This document shows, piece by piece, positions 1,138 through 40,370 of a stretch of 50,323 bases of DNA. The stretch is from Caldifarciminota bacterium SM23_42. Lineage in GTDB: Bacteria; Hydrothermota; Tepidihabitantia; SM23-42. The position numbers were made by a program, and so were the translations under genes. The stretch spans positions 1 to 50,323 of the forward strand of contig LJUJ01000014.1 of NCBI GenBank assembly GCA_001303785.1, given 5' to 3'. The notes under the pieces were generated by a model. That model saw nothing but the letters and a program-made list of their open reading frames with translations, had not been told where the DNA came from and ran no database searches. Position 1 is the stretch's first letter. Every line of letters begins with the position of its first letter.

Positions 1138-3261
1138 TCAAAAGTACAATAAGTACTTGGCCTTGACCGCGCTAATCTGATATTGAGGTTCCAACGAGCC
1201 TAAATCATCCTGCTCACGGTAATCATTCAACGCAACGTATAGCCATGACTTGGGTCTGAAACGCCAGGAAAACAAGAAGCCAAACCGGTTTGACGTTTGT
1301 GTCGCGTCATCGACATCACCACGTGGCATTTCGAAAATCATTTCGTTAAAAACCTCTAGTCTCAGGTCGCTGTTGAAGAAGAATGTGATGTATGGACGAA
1401 AGCGCGGTGTTACCGTAGCAACAGCATTCAGTGTATCCCATTCAACCCACAGATTAGCGCTGATTCCAGGATTAATCAACGGAGTGAATGCATAGCTGTA
1501 GAACAGTGAAGTGGAACTACGGTAGGCCAAGAAATTCTGATAATAATTGTGCATGTAGCCAAAACTGGAATTAATCTGTAGCCAATATCCGAAAACATTG
1601 CCAGACATTGAAAGCAGTATCTCCTTGCGTAGATAGTTGGTATCTGCTTCGTAATATGGCCCGGCGAGAAATTGAAGCGTGGTCGATATGTTATTGCGAA
1701 ATATCGGACTAAAGATCAATACACCCAGTTTCGACCACTCGCTGTTACCTGCTTCCCTTACTGCCTTGATACCACCTGCAATATGCATCGTCCGGACAAA
1801 GCCTTTATTAAATTGAAGATATGGTCCGGTGTAAAGCGTAAGCTTGTCTCTTCCGGACCAGGGTACAAATCCGATATCAGCAACATCAAAGGAATCATGC
1901 ACCGCCTCAGCCGAAGCCATAGTTCTAAGAATACCGACATCGCCCATGTACCCGGATGCGAAAGCCCAACCTTTCCTTCCGTTTCGCTCGCTCACAGCAC
2001 CTTGTAGAATGAATTGATTAGCGCCACTTCGGTAGACACCATCAAGACCCGCGGCATAGCTGTAATCGTCACTGTTTGCCATTGCTCCGCTGAATAGTAT
2101 TCCTAAATCCGAGTTATCCAGCATGCGATGCTTAACCCTTATTGCACCAAACCATTTAGCTGGTTCAATCAGTGTACCATTATCGCTGTAATCCGCAGTT
2201 CGAACGGCTAGTGCACCAACATTCCAGTGTGCGGATTTATTGGTTAACTTCAGTCCGGCACCAATCGGCACTGCGTCACCATCAGTAGACTTGCCAATCC
2301 TTCGCGAGTAGAATATGTTTAAGGGCTGAAAGAAACCCCTGCCCGGACCAAAATCAGACATCCGAAAGATATCTGCGCCCTCGAGAAAGAACGGTCTACG
2401 CTCCTGCAAGTATACCGGATAACGATCAAGATTTAGCGTGAATGGGTCAGACTCAATGTGTGCGAAGTCAGGATAGAATGTGCTATTCAACGTCGTCTGT
2501 GATGTAAGATCCCATTTGAGATTTAAACTCAAACTGGGCTTGAAGTCGGTCGCATCGGATAATACGTCCCGGTCGTATCTTACATAACCTTCGGGGTAAA
2601 GCTCGAAATGATAACCAACCACATGCGGCTCGACATTGGTCAGCAACCCCCACTTTGAGATTAAATCACCCTCGGCCTGCAACACTTCGGTCCAGAAATC
2701 ATCCTCGGCTATGAATGGTATATGGCGTTTGAACTGCACGCCCCACTCATCGAGACCACGTTTATATCGTATCGATTTGTAAGGTATCTTTATTTCCACT
2801 TCGTAGCGATCTTGATATAATTTCACACCGCTGTACCACACACCTTCCCATGAATCATCATTGGTTCTGCCGTCATCGTGTAGCCAGCCATCCCACATCT
2901 GCTCGCTCGCAAATACCCAGAAATAATATCCGGCGGTTTTACTACCAAAAGGGTCGACTTTAACAATAACATAATCTTCATCACCGGTTGGACTGGCAAT
3001 CGGCCTATGGTTTTGCGCATAGCATTTGAACGCAAAATAGATATTCGCTGCATCCTGCAGGACATAAACCACGGTTTTCTCAGTCGGCGCTGCCTTCTCG
3101 TAGGGAACATGCTGCACGAATTTATACACTGAATCTGCCTGCTGCCAAGCATCTTCAATCACGCCATCTATTCTGGGAGCGTTTTCAGTAAAACGGACAT
3201 TCACTGTCTTCGCACTGGTTATGGTTACCGCGGTCAGTAGAATCAATAAGAGCATACGCAT
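1138..3261 (-). CDS. DUF5916 protein: CBM9-like domain plus outer-membrane barrel
   Basis: 707 residues. The signal peptide MRMLLLILLTAVTITSA is followed by a carbohydrate-binding-module-9-like domain (about residues 20-200; APRIDGVIEDAWQQAD is characteristic), then the DUF5916 region with DPFTLNLDRYPVYLQERRPF and FFLEGADIF, and a C-terminal half of alternating strands with many aromatic residues, expected to form an outer-membrane beta-barrel. The function of the family is unknown. Start 3261 is chosen because AAAGGAG precedes it; a GTG at 3303 would overlap the upstream gene and put 14 polar residues before the signal peptide. Middle gene of a three-gene operon. Confidence 0.85.
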   Translation of the reverse strand: MRMLLLILLTAVTITSAKTVNVRFTENAPRIDGVIEDAWQQADSVYKFVQHVPYEKAAPTEKTVVYVLQDAANIYFAFKCYAQNHRPIASPTGDEDYVIVKVDPFGSKTAGYYFWVFASEQMWDGWLHDDGRTNDDSWEGVWYSGVKLYQDRYEVEIKIPYKSIRYKRGLDEWGVQFKRHIPFIAEDDFWTEVLQAEGDLISKWGLLTNVEPHVVGYHFELYPEGYVRYDRDVLSDATDFKPSLSLNLKWDLTSQTTLNSTFYPDFAHIESDPFTLNLDRYPVYLQERRPFFLEGADIFRMSDFGPGRGFFQPLNIFYSRRIGKSTDGDAVPIGAGLKLTNKSAHWNVGALAVRTADYSDNGTLIEPAKWFGAIRVKHRMLDNSDLGILFSGAMANSDDYSYAAGLDGVYRSGANQFILQGAVSERNGRKGWAFASGYMGDVGILRTMASAEAVHDSFDVADIGFVPWSGRDKLTLYTGPYLQFNKGFVRTMHIAGGIKAVREAGNSEWSKLGVLIFSPIFRNNISTTLQFLAGPYYEADTNYLRKEILLSMSGNVFGYWLQINSSFGYMHNYYQNFLAYRSSTSLFYSYAFTPLINPGISANLWVEWDTLNAVATVTPRFRPYITFFFNSDLRLEVFNEMIFEMPRGDVDDATQTSNRFGFLFSWRFRPKSWLYVALNDYREQDDLGSLEPQYQISAVKAKYLLYF

Positions 3262-3299
3262 ATTGACTCCTTTACTCAAAGCAAGAAACGATTCCCAAA

Positions 3300-3845
3300 T
3301 CACTCGTGCATGTATTGCACCCTGTAATTAGGGTCTGGGTACGGTGGCTCGCTGACGAATAGAACGTAATCATTTTCTTTCTCTATTTTCCTTATTTTGT
3401 GACTGCTTGATCTTTGTGTCTCGAATTTGAATACCGAATTTACTTCAATAGCATTGAAAACGTCACGGGATACACTGAAACTATGGATTCTATTGGCACC
3501 GCACAGTCGGATCGAGGCTCGATACTGGATATCAGTAAAGTTATGTTTAATCCTGTTTTCAAATGTCTGACTTACCTTCAGGTCATCATCATGTGCTATT
3601 CCGCCCCGCAAATTCTCCGCAATGGTTATGGCTCTCCCGCCTGTATCCAGCCATAAGACATACAGTTGCTGGTCGTTCATGCCAGTAATCAGTTTATACT
3701 CAACGATTCCCGTCTGTACCCGGGGTGTATAGCCCAAAATAACCAACGTGGCAATTAACCCCAAACAGACCACTATGCCTCGGGGAAGTAACCATCGAAG
3801 GAACTTCTCCGTACAGGGAATTTCTTCCGCTATCTTCTTGAACAT
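3300..3845 (-). CDS. Membrane-anchored protein of unknown function
   Basis: Not recognised. 181 residues: a short cytoplasmic start (MFKKIAEEIPCTEKFLRWLL), one membrane segment near residues 22-42 (GIVVCLGLIATLVILGY), then a ~140-residue extracytoplasmic domain with mixed strands. There are no obvious catalytic motifs. AAGGAGT lies 5 bases before the ATG. First gene of the operon leading to the DUF5916 barrel and the repeat protein, so an envelope role is likely, but this rests on context only. Confidence 0.6.
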   Translation of the reverse strand: MFKKIAEEIPCTEKFLRWLLPRGIVVCLGLIATLVILGYTPRVQTGIVEYKLITGMNDQQLYVLWLDTGGRAITIAENLRGGIAHDDDLKVSQTFENRIKHNFTDIQYRASIRLCGANRIHSFSVSRDVFNAIEVNSVFKFETQRSSSHKIRKIEKENDYVLFVSEPPYPDPNYRVQYMHE

Positions 3846-3881
3846 ATCTACTCCTTATATATTACGCTACATTACCACATA

Positions 3882-3955
3882 CCACGCATATGCGAAATCA
3901 CTGCGTCTTGGGAAGGTAATACCGCCCAGACTACAGCAAGATCGCATATGTGTGG
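3882..3955. repeat. Nested inverted repeat between arsM and the envelope operon
   Basis: CCACGCATATGCGA at 3882-3895 and TCGCATATGTGTGG at 3942-3955 are inverted copies with one mismatch. Between them lies a second small hairpin (TGGG/GGT at 3909-3917 pairing with ACC/CCCA at 3921-3928, three-base loop). Both outer arms also contain a CATATG palindrome. It could be a bidirectional terminator, an operator pair for the operon starting at 3845, or a small mobile relic. No T-run follows on either strand, which argues against a simple terminator. Confidence 0.5.
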
Positions 3956-6022: not shown

Positions 6023-6051
6023 ATTATAGGCCACTTCAAAATGGAAGTCAA
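6023..6051 (-). promoter_or_regulatory. lepB promoter (leaderless)
   Basis: Minus strand: TTGACT at 6046-6051, 17-base spacer, TATAAT at 6023-6028, then 5 bases to the lepB ATG at 6017. The predicted transcript would begin at or next to the start codon. The -35 box shares bases with the stop codon of the transposase gene upstream. Confidence 0.8.
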
Positions 6052-6953
6052 CGATCCCGAAGCGGCACTTCCCCAACCACGGGGACAGGCATAACATTTT
6101 TAACTTTTTTGTGCAACGCTCTGTACACTGTAATATGCGAGATACGACACAATTGCGCAACCCGTGGCGGTTTCAACCCAACTTCCTCGACCAAATATGC
6201 AATGATTTTGCCTCTCAAACGCTTCTCTCTCCATCCATTGGGAGCAAATAATAGCCTAGGCTTGATCTTGAAACGCGTAGTAATCAGTTCAAGTATTTGT
6301 TTGTCACTGAGATCCTCTTGCCCCGCAGGAATTTGGCGTTCTCGTACTTCCTGCTTAAACTCGTCATCACCAACAACTACTGCAGATTTCATATCCCAAT
6401 CTATCGGTCCATTTGCAGATCCTAACACGAATTTTCTATATCGATTGATACGTTCCTGCTCGTTTCCGAATTGTTCCAGGATAACATCAGGCTTTAAGAA
6501 CCCTAATGGCGCATCTCCAAGATATATCTGGTAGCTGGTCCAAGGATAATACCTCGGATCTGTTACAAGATTTGCTTCGACGGCCTGACGATGGATATAG
6601 CGGGACAACCATAAACCGTACTCATTTGCCTGTACAACTTTGTTGTTGAATCTTTCCCCAAAAACATGACCGACTCGTCCGGTCATACGATTAAAGTACT
6701 GCGCGTACTCACCATGAAGGCTATTCATAAACTCCGACACCCTACCTAGAGGATCATACACAAAGAGATGAATATGCGTTTGCATCATGGCGTACGCGAC
6801 AATATCAACTCGATAGTCCTTGCTGTATTTCTCAAGAGAATCAAGATACCTGACATAATGCTGGTCAGCAAAGAAAATCGCTTGCCGGTTATTACCCCGC
6901 GCATATATATGATGGTATATTTCTTTCCCGGATAATCTTGGACGTCGAGCCAT
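6048..6953 (-). CDS. REP-associated tyrosine transposase (RAYT, Y1/HUH family)
   Basis: Single-strand DNA nuclease of the IS200-like superfamily that acts on REP hairpins. 301 residues: N-terminal ARRPRL and YHHIYARGNN, the HUH pair at His60/His62 (MMQTHIHLFV), and the catalytic tyrosine Tyr119 in SRYIHRQAVEANLV. The C-terminal third has a helix-turn-helix look (GLKPPRVAQLCRISHITVYRALH). AAAAGGAG precedes the ATG. The C-terminal residues VKNVMPVP are encoded by one of the flanking inverted repeats, so the gene reads into its own REP sequence. Confidence 0.9.
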   Translation of the reverse strand: MARRPRLSGKEIYHHIYARGNNRQAIFFADQHYVRYLDSLEKYSKDYRVDIVAYAMMQTHIHLFVYDPLGRVSEFMNSLHGEYAQYFNRMTGRVGHVFGERFNNKVVQANEYGLWLSRYIHRQAVEANLVTDPRYYPWTSYQIYLGDAPLGFLKPDVILEQFGNEQERINRYRKFVLGSANGPIDWDMKSAVVVGDDEFKQEVRERQIPAGQEDLSDKQILELITTRFKIKPRLLFAPNGWREKRLRGKIIAYLVEEVGLKPPRVAQLCRISHITVYRALHKKVKNVMPVPVVGEVPLRDR

Positions 6954-7131: not shown

Positions 7132-9870
7132 TTAGGAGGAAAAGCCGATGGACCAGCGCAGTTTCCACGGCTCATCACCATAGCTGTATAATGGCAGATT
7201 CAGAGATAGGCTAAGTCCATATAGAGGAAGACCCGCAAAGGTTTCGGTGCCGACCACGAAGCGTACGCCAACGTCAAAAGCAAATTCTTCATAATATCCA
7301 ATGTCAGTAAATACTCTGACGAGCGATCGTGTCGGGAACTCAAGATTCAATACATACATCTGATCGGCTTTGATATGCAGTGTTTGATACCCGCGCATAT
7401 TACCACCACCGGGAATATGAACTCGCTCCTGTGGTGAATAGGTACCAGATTGACTGACCAATAGATTGGCGAGCCTGTTGACTCGTAACAAACCACTCAA
7501 GAATAGCCTTTCCTGCGTCGGTGCACTGCCAAATATCTTACCAACAAAAAGACGTGCGCTGAAAGGCACAAAAGATTCAAATGATTTTTTAATCTCGAAG
7601 GTGGTTTTCAGATACTCCCACTCACTTCCCAGCGCATGATGCGCGAAGGATAAACTGACATCAACATCTATTTTCGAATGTCGGAATCTAAAATAATTAT
7701 CGAAAGCGACATTCCTCCCTAACTCCCAGTCGGTTGAATCAAGACCAGAATAAGTAGAAAGCTCATAATATGAAACCATATTGGTAATGCCAGTTTGTGG
7801 TCTTCTTGTGAATGGCCGTCCGAGGTTGCTGGAGAAACCAATACTTATATTGTCTCCACCGCGAGAACGTGAACCGCCAAATAGAACTCGCATCCGCAAG
7901 CCATCCTTAAAAAGCACCGGGGTTTGGTAGTTCAGTAACGGATAATGTCTCCCACTTCCGAAACCGTAAGTGTAACCCGCAGCCACTTGATATCCACCTT
8001 TCACAAAATCGAAATCAGCAAACTTATCGCCAAACAAATAAAAACCTGCAGTTACGCCATCGTAACTATCATACCAAAGATAAGGCGCCCACAGAATTTG
8101 GTACGTCGAAAATGAAGGCCAGTCAAAGTCGAAAATCGGCTTGATCGACAGCTTCCGTGGTGAATAGTTGTTCCAGTAATTTGGGTCCAGCGTATATTCA
8201 GAGGGATCCAGTGCCACCGTCGTGATTTCCCCTAACGTGTCAGGTACTACAACAGTGTATTTCTTGTTTTCTGCATCAATAGAGTACACCTGCTCTCCAG
8301 ATGCCGTTGTTATATGTAAGTCTACCGGGATCTTTAAATCCCCCATGTTTTCGATCTCCACTGCATTCTCTCTTACGCTATTTACTCGCCAATCACAGAA
8401 TTCTGTAGTATTGAGAAAAGAATCGAATAGCCGGACCAAATTCTCGCTACACATTTCTCCATAAATTTTTATGAAATCCTCTGACCTTGCATGCTTGAAA
8501 GTGTACGCTCGATAATACTCTTGTAGAATCTTATCTAGTACCTCTTTACCAAGTATGTTCTCGAGAGCAAAAAGAAAAAGTGCCGGCTTGGAATTTGTAC
8601 CACTATGGTGGGAAATCGGGATATCTACGTAGTCATAAACCGGTGTGGATACGGGTTTCCCCAGATGATTGGTCTGAATAAGATAGTAGTAAGCCCTATT
8701 TAAATATCGCAATGATAGGGGTGGTAAGAAAGACACTTTGATAAGACTATTATCTATTCCGTATTTATCTTCCATATAGCGAATTGCCGCGTACGCTGCA
8801 AACCCGCTGCCGAGCCATGCATCGTTTACACCGTCCGGGCCTATCGCACCATTGAACCATTGCCTCGCAATCTCGGTAGCTATCGTGGATTCGAACAACC
8901 TAGTGAACCGATCTTCCCTAACACCCAGAATAATCAACTGTGGATACGTCGCATCGCCCTGATGAAAGCCATCAACGATGCTTAGAGTCTTATAGGGATA
9001 CTGACCAAACCACTGGCTATATCTGTAGATCGCATCAGCTGCATAAAGATTGGTATGCTCAGAATTATTATTTTTATGTGGGCGATAGAAAATGTAAATA
9101 TCCGTGTTCTGGTTTCTAAATCGCTTAACACCGAATTCTAGATCGCAAATCCAAGCAAAATCGTGCACATTTTCGGCGCGGAAATGTACTCTCTTACGCT
9201 CACCTCGCGGCAGCTTCGTGCCGAAGGCAACAAGCGTATCAAGGAATTCCTTTTCCACCGTATCAACGAGTTCGCCTGTAGCAGCCACGACATAATTGCC
9301 GGGAATGTTTAGGGTCACGTCGTATGTGCCAAACTCCCCAAAACTACCCCCAAGCGGATGGAGTTGACCATGGTGCCAGCCTTCTTGGTCAAATACGCAC
9401 ACCTTAGGATACCACTGAGTCATTTCATAGTGCTCACGCCAGTACCCAAAATTAGGAAACTCCTTGGGTATTCTAACGTGGAATTTAATTTTCAAGACTA
9501 ATGAATCACCTGCTTCCAACGGTTGATGCATCGGAATAGCCATCACGGTTTCGTCAACCTGGAATTGCAGCAACAGATTACCGCAAGTGATTTCCACTAC
9601 ATCCACGTACCCACGCACATCGGCTTTCGCTTTTATATATTTCTCATCACCCATCTCATACGCCTCCCGCGCATAATAGGTATCTCTGTCCCGATAAGCA
9701 TTGGCATAGAGATGTATGTAGAGCGTTTCGAGTTGATAAGGCGAGTTATTATAGTAGGTGAGATACTCTACACCGCTGAGTGTGTGCTCCTCAGTATTGA
9801 GTTTCGCCTCTATGTCATATGATACACCCTGTTGCCAATTGACAATAGCAAGAAGTAGGCAAGCAATCAT
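7132..9870 (-). CDS. M1-peptidase-like protein without zinc ligands, fused to an Omp85-like barrel
   Basis: 912 residues. A short signal-like start (MIACLLLAIVNWQQG) precedes an aminopeptidase N-type N-terminal domain and a gluzincin domain. In M1 enzymes the zinc site is HExxH-x18-E; here the aligned stretch is TEIAR (residues ~330) and WLGSGFA, so all three metal ligands are replaced (His to Thr, His to Arg, Glu to Ser) at the exact spacing. The usual GxMEN/GGMEYP motif has become GDATYPQL. The C-terminal ~330 residues are strand-rich, with GGGNMRGYQ, the Omp85/surface-antigen barrel signature. It is likely an outer-membrane protein with a binding rather than peptidase role. It starts 1 base after a micro-ORF. 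Confidence 0.8.
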   Translation of the reverse strand: MIACLLLAIVNWQQGVSYDIEAKLNTEEHTLSGVEYLTYYNNSPYQLETLYIHLYANAYRDRDTYYAREAYEMGDEKYIKAKADVRGYVDVVEITCGNLLLQFQVDETVMAIPMHQPLEAGDSLVLKIKFHVRIPKEFPNFGYWREHYEMTQWYPKVCVFDQEGWHHGQLHPLGGSFGEFGTYDVTLNIPGNYVVAATGELVDTVEKEFLDTLVAFGTKLPRGERKRVHFRAENVHDFAWICDLEFGVKRFRNQNTDIYIFYRPHKNNNSEHTNLYAADAIYRYSQWFGQYPYKTLSIVDGFHQGDATYPQLIILGVREDRFTRLFESTIATEIARQWFNGAIGPDGVNDAWLGSGFAAYAAIRYMEDKYGIDNSLIKVSFLPPLSLRYLNRAYYYLIQTNHLGKPVSTPVYDYVDIPISHHSGTNSKPALFLFALENILGKEVLDKILQEYYRAYTFKHARSEDFIKIYGEMCSENLVRLFDSFLNTTEFCDWRVNSVRENAVEIENMGDLKIPVDLHITTASGEQVYSIDAENKKYTVVVPDTLGEITTVALDPSEYTLDPNYWNNYSPRKLSIKPIFDFDWPSFSTYQILWAPYLWYDSYDGVTAGFYLFGDKFADFDFVKGGYQVAAGYTYGFGSGRHYPLLNYQTPVLFKDGLRMRVLFGGSRSRGGDNISIGFSSNLGRPFTRRPQTGITNMVSYYELSTYSGLDSTDWELGRNVAFDNYFRFRHSKIDVDVSLSFAHHALGSEWEYLKTTFEIKKSFESFVPFSARLFVGKIFGSAPTQERLFLSGLLRVNRLANLLVSQSGTYSPQERVHIPGGGNMRGYQTLHIKADQMYVLNLEFPTRSLVRVFTDIGYYEEFAFDVGVRFVVGTETFAGLPLYGLSLSLNLPLYSYGDEPWKLRWSIGFSS

Positions 9871-10074: not shown

Positions 10075-11082
10075 ATGACTCGTATCCGTATACTACTTAT
10101 CGAATTACTCAGTGGATTAATAGTCATATCATCAACCGCGAGCATGTATGCGCAAGTTCCGGAATATGATCTACTCAGAACCCAGGTTGAAAAAGACAGC
10201 CTAGCAACTGTCGAATATCCATACATCTTTCCATTATTTGGAGAGAACATAGTACGCAAGGGGTTCGACTTACCGTTGCCGATCGGTATCAGCATCAGCT
10301 ATTACCAGCAAAGCATGGATGTCATAATAGACAGTGTGGCTCTCGGACTTGGAGGCGCTGGCTTTATGCCTCTCACTTTTGTTGATTTTGAAAAAGTGAC
10401 CAACGAGGCGCGCAACTATAATGCACGCCTCGACCTCTGGTTATTTCCGTTTCTTAACATCTACGGCATGCTCGGTTATGCCGAGTCGGACGCTGCTGTC
10501 ACTCTCAACGCACCTTTTGATTTTGAAACGGCGGTCAGTTTCAATGGATGGTCGTACGGTGGAGGTGCCATACTTGCAGTCGGATTGCAGGGTTTCTGGA
10601 TTACGGCCAATGGCAATCTTACATGGACTGACATGGAGGATTATTACGATCCAGTACGGGCAACCGTTTTGTCATTTCGTCTGGGCCGAACCCTACGTAT
10701 CATAAAGAACACTAGTTTTCAAATTTGGCTCGGCGCCATGCATCAAGACCCCGAGTCTAAAGTCACTGGTAAATTTCTCTTAGACGATGTTGTCACTAAT
10801 GAATTAATGGGTTACTTCCAGAACTACCAACAAAGTCAATGGTATAATGATTTGACTCCTCAGGAACAGCAGTTCGTGGATACCTTTATTGAAATAATGC
10901 AACAGGGTCCAACCGGTTTGGCTCTAGATTACGAAGTAGTGCAAAATCCAGAACAAAGATGGAATATGCTTGCCGGAGCACAAGTGGAGCTAAGCAAGAA
11001 GTGGTATATACAGGCAGAGGCTGGATTCCTGGGCAGCCGCACCTCCCTCATGATGAATTTGAATTACCGGCTGCCGCTATAG
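10075..11082 (+). CDS. Predicted outer-membrane beta-barrel protein, unknown function
   Basis: 335 residues. Signal peptide residues 1-27 ending SMYAQ; the mature part consists of repeated amphipathic strands rich in Gly and aromatic residues (LDLWLFPFLNIYGMLGYAES, WSYGGGAILAVGLQGFWI) and ends in a strand, NLNYRLPL. A helical insertion lies around residues 235-290 (LTPQEQQFVDTFIEIMQQ). The layout suits a small porin-like or autotransporter-like barrel. It is transcribed alone from its own promoter. The last 19 bases overlap convergently with the atl gene. No family name is recognised. Confidence 0.7.
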   Translation: MTRIRILLIELLSGLIVISSTASMYAQVPEYDLLRTQVEKDSLATVEYPYIFPLFGENIVRKGFDLPLPIGISISYYQQSMDVIIDSVALGLGGAGFMPLTFVDFEKVTNEARNYNARLDLWLFPFLNIYGMLGYAESDAAVTLNAPFDFETAVSFNGWSYGGGAILAVGLQGFWITANGNLTWTDMEDYYDPVRATVLSFRLGRTLRIIKNTSFQIWLGAMHQDPESKVTGKFLLDDVVTNELMGYFQNYQQSQWYNDLTPQEQQFVDTFIEIMQQGPTGLALDYEVVQNPEQRWNMLAGAQVELSKKWYIQAEAGFLGSRTSLMMNLNYRLPL

Positions 11083-21172: not shown

Positions 21173-22222
21173 ATGAGCTATATCGGTATTGATTTGCATC
21201 GGCGGTTCTCTCAGGTGCATGTGATTACTGCACCGGCACAGCATGAGACGACCCACCGGCTCCCGAATGATGAGCTTGCCGTACGGCAATTCTTCAGTGC
21301 TTTAGAGGATGGGTGTAAGGTGGCGATCGAGGCGACCGGGAACTGGTATTGGTTAGTCGATGTACTGCAGGATATGGGTTGCGATGTAGCCCTATCCAAC
21401 CCCCTACAGACCAAGGCGATCGCCACAGCCCGGATCAAGAATGATAAGGTCGATGCCCGCATTTTAGCGCACTTGCTGCGGGCGGATCTGCTGCCGACCT
21501 GCTGGATCCCTGATCCAAAGCAGCGCAGCATCCGCGATATGTTACGCATCCGGTTGCGCTTGATCGTCTTTCGTACCCAGTGTAAGAATCTCGTGCGCGC
21601 GGTCCTGGCCAAGTACAACATCACGCTGGCGGCACAACAAATCTGGCAGGGTAGCGGCCGTGAGGAATTACTACAGACGGTGCTGCCCGCATCCTATCCG
21701 GAAGTTATCCAGCAGGCATTAGTCCTGATCGAGCAATTGACCGCACAGATCCAGTACTGGGAAGAACGTATTCACGAACAGGTTACTGTTACCCCCGCCG
21801 CACAACGACTCTTGACCGTACCAGGCATTGGTGAACTCTCGGCCCTAACGATCCTCTACGAGAGCGGGCCGATTACCCGCTTCCCGTCGGCAAAACACTA
21901 TGTGAGTTATGCCGGATTGGTGCCACAGGTGAAAGCGAGTGCCGATAAGTGCTGGCACGGCCGACTATTCAAACAAGCCAATATGTATCTGAAACGAACG
22001 TACGTGGAAGTCGCCCAGGTCTCGGTGCGCACCCGGGCCACGGATGCGCGACTCAAATGCTTTTATCACCGAACCATGAAACGCAAAGGCAAAGCGATCG
22101 CCCGCATCGCCCTCGCCCGCAAAATCGCAGGCCTTGTCTACCATATGCTCAAACACAATATTAATTACACAACTTGTATGGCGCGAAATAAAATGGCTGA
22201 GCAAGCCTCTGTCACCCCTTAA
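21173..22222 (+). CDS. IS110/IS1111-family transposase (DEDD recombinase)
   Basis: 349 residues. The N-terminal RuvC-like DEDD domain has GIDLHRRFSQVHV (first Asp), VAIEATGNWYWLVD (Glu) and KNDKVDARILAHLLR (the two Asp). The C-terminal Transposase_20 domain has LLTVPGIGELSALTIL and RFPSAKHYVSYAGLVP, with a Ser in KASADK where the family has its catalytic serine. The frame is intact. AAAAGGAGGT precedes the ATG. These enzymes recombine DNA under guidance of a structured RNA made by the element. Confidence 0.95.
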   Translation: MSYIGIDLHRRFSQVHVITAPAQHETTHRLPNDELAVRQFFSALEDGCKVAIEATGNWYWLVDVLQDMGCDVALSNPLQTKAIATARIKNDKVDARILAHLLRADLLPTCWIPDPKQRSIRDMLRIRLRLIVFRTQCKNLVRAVLAKYNITLAAQQIWQGSGREELLQTVLPASYPEVIQQALVLIEQLTAQIQYWEERIHEQVTVTPAAQRLLTVPGIGELSALTILYESGPITRFPSAKHYVSYAGLVPQVKASADKCWHGRLFKQANMYLKRTYVEVAQVSVRTRATDARLKCFYHRTMKRKGKAIARIALARKIAGLVYHMLKHNINYTTCMARNKMAEQASVTP

Positions 22223-39064: not shown

Positions 39065-39625
39065 GTGTATAATAAAGTAGATAGTGACGATGCGTTACTC
39101 GAATCCGTTAAAAAGGGCGACTGTGATGCCTTCAATCCTCTGATTGAGCGGTACAAGCTACCACTCTACAAGGTAATGTATCGCATGGTGTTGAATCGCG
39201 ATGATGCCGAAGACCTGGTCGAAGAAGCGTTCATCAAGGCCTATCGTTCTATCAAGAGCTTCGAACTCGGACGACCGTTCTATAGTTGGTTAAGGAGGAT
39301 CGCTGTGAACAATGCAATCAATTTTTTGAAGAAGGAACATCGAACAAGAAGTGAACCGCTAGAGGCAGTTGAGAGAACACTGAGTGACAAGCGACACGAC
39401 CCAGTAGCCATGACGAGGCAGAAGATGCTAAAGGAAAAAATTACCCTCGCCATGGAAAAGCTGCCCGAGGAATCTCGAATCATCATTTCGCTCAAGGTTG
39501 AGGAGGATCTGTCATACGATGAAATGAGTGAGTTACTAAATATCCCCAAGGGAACGGTGATGTCCAGGCTCGCCCGTGCTCGTCACAAATTGAAGAAAAT
39601 ATTAGAAGATATGGAGGTGCCTTAG
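39065..39625 (+). CDS. ECF-type RNA polymerase sigma factor
   Basis: 186 residues. Region 2 (~25-95: YKLPLYKVMYRMVLNRDDAEDLVEEAFIKAY in pieces, FYSWLRRIAVNNAINFLK) and region 4 (~130-180: MEKLPEESRIIISLKVEEDLSYDEMSELL in pieces, PKGTVMSRLARARHKLKK). Directs polymerase to a stress or envelope regulon. The start is GTG at 39065 with AAAGGG 9 bases upstream. The next gene, 1 base away, is its anti-sigma factor. Confidence 0.95.
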   Translation: MYNKVDSDDALLESVKKGDCDAFNPLIERYKLPLYKVMYRMVLNRDDAEDLVEEAFIKAYRSIKSFELGRPFYSWLRRIAVNNAINFLKKEHRTRSEPLEAVERTLSDKRHDPVAMTRQKMLKEKITLAMEKLPEESRIIISLKVEEDLSYDEMSELLNIPKGTVMSRLARARHKLKKILEDMEVP

Positions 39626-39626
39626 T

Positions 39627-40370
39627 ATGAAATGCGATTTGCCCATTGAATTACTAAATGGGTATCTTGACAATGAACTAGATGACGAGCAGCGAGCTTG
39701 GGTCGAAACCCACCTTAAAGCATGCCCGGCTTGCCGTGACGAACTCGATGTCTTAAAAAGAATTGACCGAGCCGTGAGAGACGAAGTATACGAAGAACCA
39801 TCATCAAAATTCGTCCTTGGCCTGAACCGCCGCGTCATGGAGAAGGTAAGCATCCCCCGCCGACGTAGTTTGTTCAGATTTGCGCCGGTTTTCGTACCCG
39901 TGGCCGCGGCGTTTCTGATACTAATTGTCCTCATTAACATAAGTCCTTCGAAGCGATTGGTTGACGTAAATGACCGAATGTTCTATGAGGAACTCGCGGC
40001 GCGTCAAGAGGTGCAAGTTTCAATACCCGAGCCGAAAATTGCCCGGGCCCCAATATCTAAAAAGGGCGTTGCACAAGCGGATGTCGACAGGGAAAAATCT
40101 GCGCCGGCAAGACTGGAGGAAACACGTATTGCTGAGACCGCCGGAAAACCCGATATGCCTGAAGCAGGAATCATGGCTCCCGCCGGCGAACAGGTTGTCC
40201 GTGCAATCATTGATTCCACCGGTATTGTGATTAAGGTGGCAACCGGGAACACGCTAGTTCCCGAAAAAGATACCATGCTCGAAAACGAACTATCGGGTCA
40301 GCAGCTATCTCCTCCAACTATCGCCGGAAGGAAGAAACAAGTCTATGTGGATTTTTCAACCGAGGAGTGA
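39627..40370 (+). CDS. Membrane anti-sigma factor with zinc-finger (zf-HC2) domain
   Basis: 247 residues. The cytoplasmic zf-HC2 domain has HLKACPACRDEL (HxxxCxxC) at ~32-43, a membrane helix lies at ~88-106 (FAPVFVPVAAAFLILIVLI), and the remaining periplasmic part is rich in Pro, Ala and Glu and ends in KKQVYVDFSTEE. It should hold the ECF sigma factor inactive until an envelope signal triggers release. GGAGGT lies at the end of the sigma gene. Confidence 0.9.
   Translation: MKCDLPIELLNGYLDNELDDEQRAWVETHLKACPACRDELDVLKRIDRAVRDEVYEEPSSKFVLGLNRRVMEKVSIPRRRSLFRFAPVFVPVAAAFLILIVLINISPSKRLVDVNDRMFYEELAARQEVQVSIPEPKIARAPISKKGVAQADVDREKSAPARLEETRIAETAGKPDMPEAGIMAPAGEQVVRAIIDSTGIVIKVATGNTLVPEKDTMLENELSGQQLSPPTIAGRKKQVYVDFSTEE

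Follow-up and report, generated by a model that had tools for sequence, protein, structure and literature searches.

What role is left to a peptidase fold that has lost its zinc ligands and is joined to an outer membrane barrel? The question is raised by a gene in a 50,323-nucleotide stretch of DNA from Caldifarciminota bacterium SM23_42 (contig LJUJ01000014.1; hereafter, the window). An initial annotation of its product, P0001, had proposed an outer membrane pseudopeptidase, with an M1 peptidase fold and an Omp85-like barrel, that could be a receptor or an assembly factor. Omp85 proteins are the universal machines that insert barrels into the outer membranes of bacteria, mitochondria and plastids, and they are built around POTRA domains.

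Domain organization

Open reading frame analysis gave a fusion protein of 912 residues plus stop. The frame is on the minus strand, a point on which the initial annotation had to be corrected, and the plus strand over 7132-9870 contains many stops. The features of the gene and its two neighbours are collected in Table 1.

An AlphaFold2 model of P0001 was calculated from 44 homologues and had a mean pLDDT of 90.3 and a pTM of 0.88. In this model the M1 fold spans residues 14-560 and comprises the saddle, the helical catalytic-type domain and the Ig-like sandwich. When the N-terminal part was compared with M1 structures using VIA-align, Z scores of 30-35 were obtained, the best of which was 34.6 to 1z1w (470 residues, rmsd 2.9). 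Pfam PF01433 (Peptidase_M1) matched residues 323-485 with an E value of 1.1e-12 and 48 bits against a cut-off of 27.7, and a PDB sequence search with P0001 matched M1 aminopeptidases, human ERAP2 among them. The aminopeptidase N matches in NCBIfam were weak, far below cut-off. By domain order and fold, P0001 belongs to the M1 fold family, as had been proposed. It shares the saddle, helical catalytic and Ig-like domains with the M1 metallopeptidases (aminopeptidase N, ERAP1/2, LTA4H, tricorn F3) but, unlike them, it lacks the zinc ligands, the GxME motif and the catalytic tyrosine, and a membrane barrel replaces the M1 C-terminal helical domain.

Table 1. Features of the M1-Omp85 fusion gene and its neighbours, in window coordinates.
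Feature	Position	Strand	Basis
IS200-like (Y1) transposase gene, immediately downstream	6048..6953	-	Pfam PF01797
M1-Omp85 fusion gene (P0001)	7132..9870	-	Open frame; same-genus homologues 56-59% identical
Omp85-type 16-stranded beta barrel, residues 585-912	7135..8118	-	Full and barrel-alone models, structural matches
GGGNMRGY motif, residues 821-828, loop L6 between strands 11 and 12	7387..7410	-	Sequence, model
Ig-like beta sandwich of M1 enzymes, residues 491-560	8191..8400	-	Model, VIA-align span
M1 catalytic-type helical domain, residues 263-490, inactive	8401..9084	-	PF01433, model
Former catalytic Tyr position, residue 426 (Asn)	8593..8595	-	Homologue comparison
Former zinc motif, residues 332-355, TEIAR-x18-S for HExxH-x18-E	8806..8877	-	Sequence and homologue comparison
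Former GxME position, residues 307-309, ATY for MEY	8944..8952	-	Homologue comparison
M1 N-terminal saddle domain, residues 14-262	9085..9831	-	AlphaFold2 model, VIA-align to M1 structures, domain-loss survey
Hydrophobic N-terminus, residues 1-11, probably a signal peptide; conserved WQQ next	9838..9870	-	Sequence and homologues
Divergent small outer membrane barrel gene (OMP_b-brl, under Pfam cut-off)	10075..11082	+	Relatives near the fusion in two genus mates

The catalytic centre

The HExxH-x18-E zinc site of active M1 enzymes is absent from P0001. The corresponding stretch reads T332-E333-I-A-R336-x18-S355, so that all three ligands are gone and the spacing is kept, exactly as the initial annotation had described. 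The GxME motif is lost as well, the position being occupied by D306-A307-T308; the motif reads GGMEYP in the zinc-intact family members, and not GAMEN. In addition, the position of the transition-state tyrosine, which had gone unmentioned, is N426. The general base Glu333 is the sole catalytic residue left. The whole protein was checked for an alternative zinc site and no HExxH was found elsewhere. Judged by these residues, the peptidase of P0001 is catalytically dead.

The barrel

Sixteen barrel strands were found in the AlphaFold2 model at residues 589-911, as in the C-terminal barrel of the Omp85 superfamily (BamA, TamA, Sam50, Toc75). The GGGNMRGY motif sits in a long loop, residues 783-836, between strands 11 and 12, which is the L6 site of the Omp85 RGF/Y motif, and RGY or RGW is retained by most homologues in alignment A2. 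The barrel was also modelled alone (pLDDT 79.8) and compared with the PDB. All 50 of the 50 best matches listed were of the BamA/TamA/Sam50/Toc75/CdiB types, with Z scores of 16-19 over about 260 residues. Structure prediction of both halves, the check that the initial annotation had suggested, thus returned an M1 fold and a 16-stranded barrel. Neither observation that would have spoken against that annotation, a zinc site elsewhere or a C-terminal part other than a barrel, was made.

P0001 differs from the superfamily in having an M1 module and an Ig domain and no POTRA domain, and its barrel is too divergent for the Pfam Omp85 profile. PF01103 had no match in P0001 and, in alignment A1, matched one of 44 members. 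The assignment to Omp85 is consequently based on the structure, on where the motif lies and on the relatives; one of these, the zinc-intact L137, scores above the curated cut-off for PF01433 as well as for PF01103. No POTRA domain was found in the model, where the Ig-like domain runs straight into the barrel, and no patatin domain was found by Pfam or in the model, so that P0001 does not qualify as a PlpD-like type Vd protein. Omp85 members lacking an N-terminal domain ('noNterm') are recognised in the passages found of one survey (PMC4104836). Because POTRA domains are absent but such members are recognised, P0001 was classed as an Omp85-type barrel protein, without assignment to BamA or TamA. 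Besides three stronger Omp85-family matches, the window genome has a fourth (L097, G000:C21:44937-45722), which lies inside a 933-residue frame.

Given its even strand number, the modelled barrel would by the Omp85 rule have both ends in the periplasm, and the M1 module would lie there with them. A periplasmic M1 module would then stand where BamA and TamA have their POTRA domains.

Distribution and loss of the zinc site

A search with P0001 gave matches in 97 of 150 related genomes. The genus mates carry open frames 56-59% identical to P0001 in which the zinc site is likewise lost, which bears out the earlier view that the loss is not random decay. No copy of the fusion was found in G006, a genus mate with a 94% complete genome, which indicates that this organism can do without the gene. 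The two partial copies in each of G010 and G012 were not counted as paralogues, because runs of N, together with the surA and cca genes that flank the two pieces, point to a single copy split in two in each case.

The survey of homologues, also suggested by the initial annotation, was made on 64 proteins in which the catalytic region is covered, a site being scored as intact when HExxH, Glu, ME and, where covered, Tyr were present. The zinc site was complete in 38 and lost in 26. The zinc-dead set comprised every one of the six proteins found in the window genus, single proteins of g3 (a genus of the same family) and of g9, and all 18 proteins of family f6. The zinc-intact proteins included those of most other genera of the window's family and all of the sister family f2. 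An intact zinc site is the canonical condition in M1 enzymes, which makes the dead state the derived one. The g9 protein (L018, genome G015) reads HKxxR...K at the zinc site and keeps ME and Tyr; this partial loss looks like an early stage in the shutdown of the protease.

A tree built without the motif columns required three changes of state. AU tests rejected trees that group all dead proteins, as expected for a single loss (p 6.6e-6), and trees that group the seven tested dead proteins of the window's family, as expected for a single loss within it (p 0.0044). With both rejected, there were at least three losses: the zinc site was lost at least three times independently, and the barrel was kept.

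A profile search of 390 genomes found full-length fusions of about 940-1110 residues in several genomes of other phyla. Among those fetched, ten had an intact zinc motif and barrel profile E values from 1e-100 to 6e-14, and two further proteins matched the barrel profile with an altered L6 motif. The nearest named relatives suggest that the window genome belongs to candidate division WOR-3, and this barrel recurs in zinc-intact families from other parts of that division (hhalign 99.7%). The occurrence of intact fusions in several phyla indicates that the fusion is old and widespread and that the dead state is not. In the very diverged L151 of another phylum (G200, 1167-3932, minus strand), the barrel profile matched with an E value of 3e-34 and the M1-like half was weakly recognisable, with no catalytic residues; on its sequence, this is a probable fourth independent loss. 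The term pseudopeptidase therefore holds for P0001, but most relatives inside and outside the phylum are zinc-intact, and the pseudo-state is derived and convergent.

Evolution after the loss

The ratio of M1 to barrel branch lengths was 0.91 in proteins with zinc, compared with 2.39 in the window genus and g3, 1.83 in f6 and 1.53 in g9 (Mann-Whitney p 0.0008 with branches treated as independent). Pairwise distances concurred. Two stems of dead clades had ratios of 0.68 and 0.63, with no speed-up of the M1 half, so the relaxation is seen inside the dead clades. The N-terminal saddle domain was absent from five of the 26 zinc-dead rows and from none of the 38 zinc-intact rows; a sixth zinc-dead row is cut by a contig end and stands outside the five. 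The losses were in L015 of the window genus, in L045, L052 and L059 of one f6 genus and in L062 of another. The missing domain was not found in the flanking DNA examined of these five, all of which retain the helical domain and the barrel.

Within the genus, the M1 catalytic domain is 47-68% identical, with 73 of 228 positions invariant, and the barrel is 60-81% identical. The M1 half of the zinc-dead proteins is relaxed but not free of constraint. Because this half is relaxed and not newly constrained, there is no support for a specific new function of it. Repeated shutdown of the peptidase left the barrel in place, which suggests that it is the barrel that counts.

The possibility was considered that the barrel alone matters in the zinc-dead lineages, with the M1 half decaying as a passenger and kept only by the need for an open frame. 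This is the main rival to the assembly and quality-control reading. It would account for the roughly twofold faster evolution of the M1 half relative to the barrel once zinc was lost, for the five deletions of the N-terminal domain and for former zinc-site residues that vary freely among the six genus members (T/N/D/N/G/G and R/W/L/K/K/E). However, the invariant positions of the catalytic domain show that some constraint remains, and the helical domain is kept even where the N-terminal domain was dropped. This explanation is considered unlikely, with something like one chance in four.

Genomic context

The usual gene order in zinc-intact members of the window's family and in G025 (f2) is PPIase-PPIase-SurA-fusion, mostly followed by cca. 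In the window genome (G000, contig C17), G002 and G009, surA is followed directly by cca and the fusion sits elsewhere; in G015 the fusion is also away from surA. The link to surA was rejected as a strict rule because the fusion is not behind surA in the zinc-intact genomes G020, G023, G024 and G026. It is confined to the window's order (f1, f2), and neither f6 nor the genomes outside the class showed a conserved neighbour of the fusion.

The displaced fusion of four genus mates lies downstream of or near genes for an ECF sigma factor, a zinc-finger anti-sigma factor and two LTXXQ/Spy-CpxP-like proteins. In L077 and L078, the fusion is the next gene after this cassette on the same strand, and in the window genome the cassette is on another contig, not beside the fusion. 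The surA operon and the sigma cassette are both settings of outer membrane assembly or envelope stress.

At L078 (5964-8153), the ECF sigma factor, the anti-sigma factor and two LTXXQ/Metal_resist proteins are encoded directly upstream of the zinc-dead fusion, and this envelope-stress cassette may regulate it. In the window, an anti-sigma (zf-HC2-type) match at 39627-40370 (plus strand) lies just behind 39065-39625, possibly a second sigma/anti-sigma pair. Relatives of the transposase at 6048..6953, which may be of the REP-associated type, adjoin the fusion in the genus mates G002, G004 and G007 and lie between surA and the fusion in G013 (L128). A frame at 21173-22222 (plus strand) starts, as judged by eye, like an IS110-type transposase (MSYIGIDLHRRFSQVHV...). 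A DUF5916/CBM9-like protein of 721 residues is encoded near the fusion at 1138-3303 (minus strand), and a relative (c26) lies close to the fusion in G004 (L077) and to surA in G033 (L120).

A protein of this layout might instead be a surface receptor, or might export the M1 module through the barrel as an enzyme passenger, in the manner of the PlpD-type (type Vd) proteins. Omp85 barrels do exist fused to enzymes, as in PlpD (PMC11116518) and the PF00149 'Metallo' group. However, in the model no POTRA domain stands between the M1 module and the barrel, and the zinc-intact relatives are found behind surA and PPIase genes. Receptor or export functions are improbable on these grounds. Of the two roles first suggested, assembly is favoured by the barrel superfamily, the predicted periplasmic M1 module and the surA/PPIase neighbours of the zinc-intact relatives, while the receptor is disfavoured.

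Discussion

P0001 is best read, with a probability of roughly 0.55, as an envelope assembly or quality-control factor in which an Omp85 barrel carries a periplasmic M1 module whose protease activity has repeatedly been switched off. The assembly and quality-control role, the periplasmic side and the binding of clients are what we infer; the two domains, the catalytic losses, the relocation of the gene and the faster evolution of the M1 half were established computationally. The ancestral form would be the zinc-intact fusion, still present in most of the phylum and in other phyla and, in the window's order, usually behind surA. By analogy with BepA beside BAM, the intact peptidase might clip or remove stalled or misfolded clients at the barrel on a SurA-dependent route. 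In the window genus, the fusion gene moved out of the surA operon and the catalytic centre was lost, and either event may have come first. What remains is a barrel with a non-catalytic M1 module, whose role would go no further than that of a lid on the periplasmic side, structural or client-binding.

BepA belongs to peptidase family M48. This periplasmic zinc metallopeptidase acts at BAM in E. coli in both chaperone-like and protease roles, and its protease-dead form, E137Q, keeps a weakened chaperone-like activity (PMC8423444). It resembles the fusion as a metallopeptidase at an assembly site; unlike the fusion, it is soluble, comes from another peptidase family and has no barrel, so the analogy is functional only. 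A likeness in layout is offered by proteins with PF00149, a metallophosphatase fold. The passages found of Heinz and Lithgow (2014, PMC4104836) describe a 'Metallo' Omp85 group that carries PF00149 and for which periplasmic quality control is suggested. In that group, as in P0001, the barrel is joined to a metal-enzyme domain, although this is PF00149 and not M1 (PMC4104836, same passages). According to the parts available of a 2024 review of dead metallopeptidases (PMC11266112), the yeast M1 relative Tma108 is probably non-enzymatic and is thought to bind nascent chains. On that partial account, Tma108 is likewise an M1 relative acting without catalysis but is cytosolic, misses only one substrate-binding residue and has no membrane domain.

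Two further explanations were weighed against the assembly and quality-control reading. Acquisition of a new catalytic or metal site by the M1 fold might be entertained since E333 and several His remain in P0001. However, within the genus the M1 half has gained no fixed His, Cys or Asp, the single newly fixed Glu (Glu558) is isolated at the barrel junction, and the former zinc site is variable among the genus members, all of which makes a new site very improbable. A sequencing or assembly artefact or a pseudogene, conceivable for a MAG-derived genome, is already refuted by homologues, as open frames with the same losses occur in separate contexts in five other genomes of the genus and in one of another genus of the family, with the barrel well conserved in the genus.

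Searches of the open literature found no report of an M1-Omp85 fusion. Such a fusion is not among the passages found of the 2014 Omp85 survey, whose main text does not contain the word 'peptidase' (PMC4104836), and Tma108 alone is mentioned among M1 relatives in the available parts of the 2024 review (PMC11266112). P0001 can be called an Omp85 protein with an undescribed N-terminal module, here in a convergently inactivated version. More tentatively, and at slightly less than even odds, the M1-Omp85 fusions may form an undescribed, multi-phylum class of outer membrane assembly and quality-control proteins, whose BamA-like barrel bears a metallopeptidase and not POTRA domains, whose proteolysis was lost convergently at least three times and whose dead peptidase would be kept to handle clients without catalysis.

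To put an M1 peptidase where Omp85 barrels usually have POTRA domains is a distinct solution. The natural series from intact through partly lost (G015) and dead to N-domain-deleted proteins makes the cutting of clients as opposed to their holding testable. Moreover, the three independent losses provide a clean comparative data set for the origin of pseudoenzymes.
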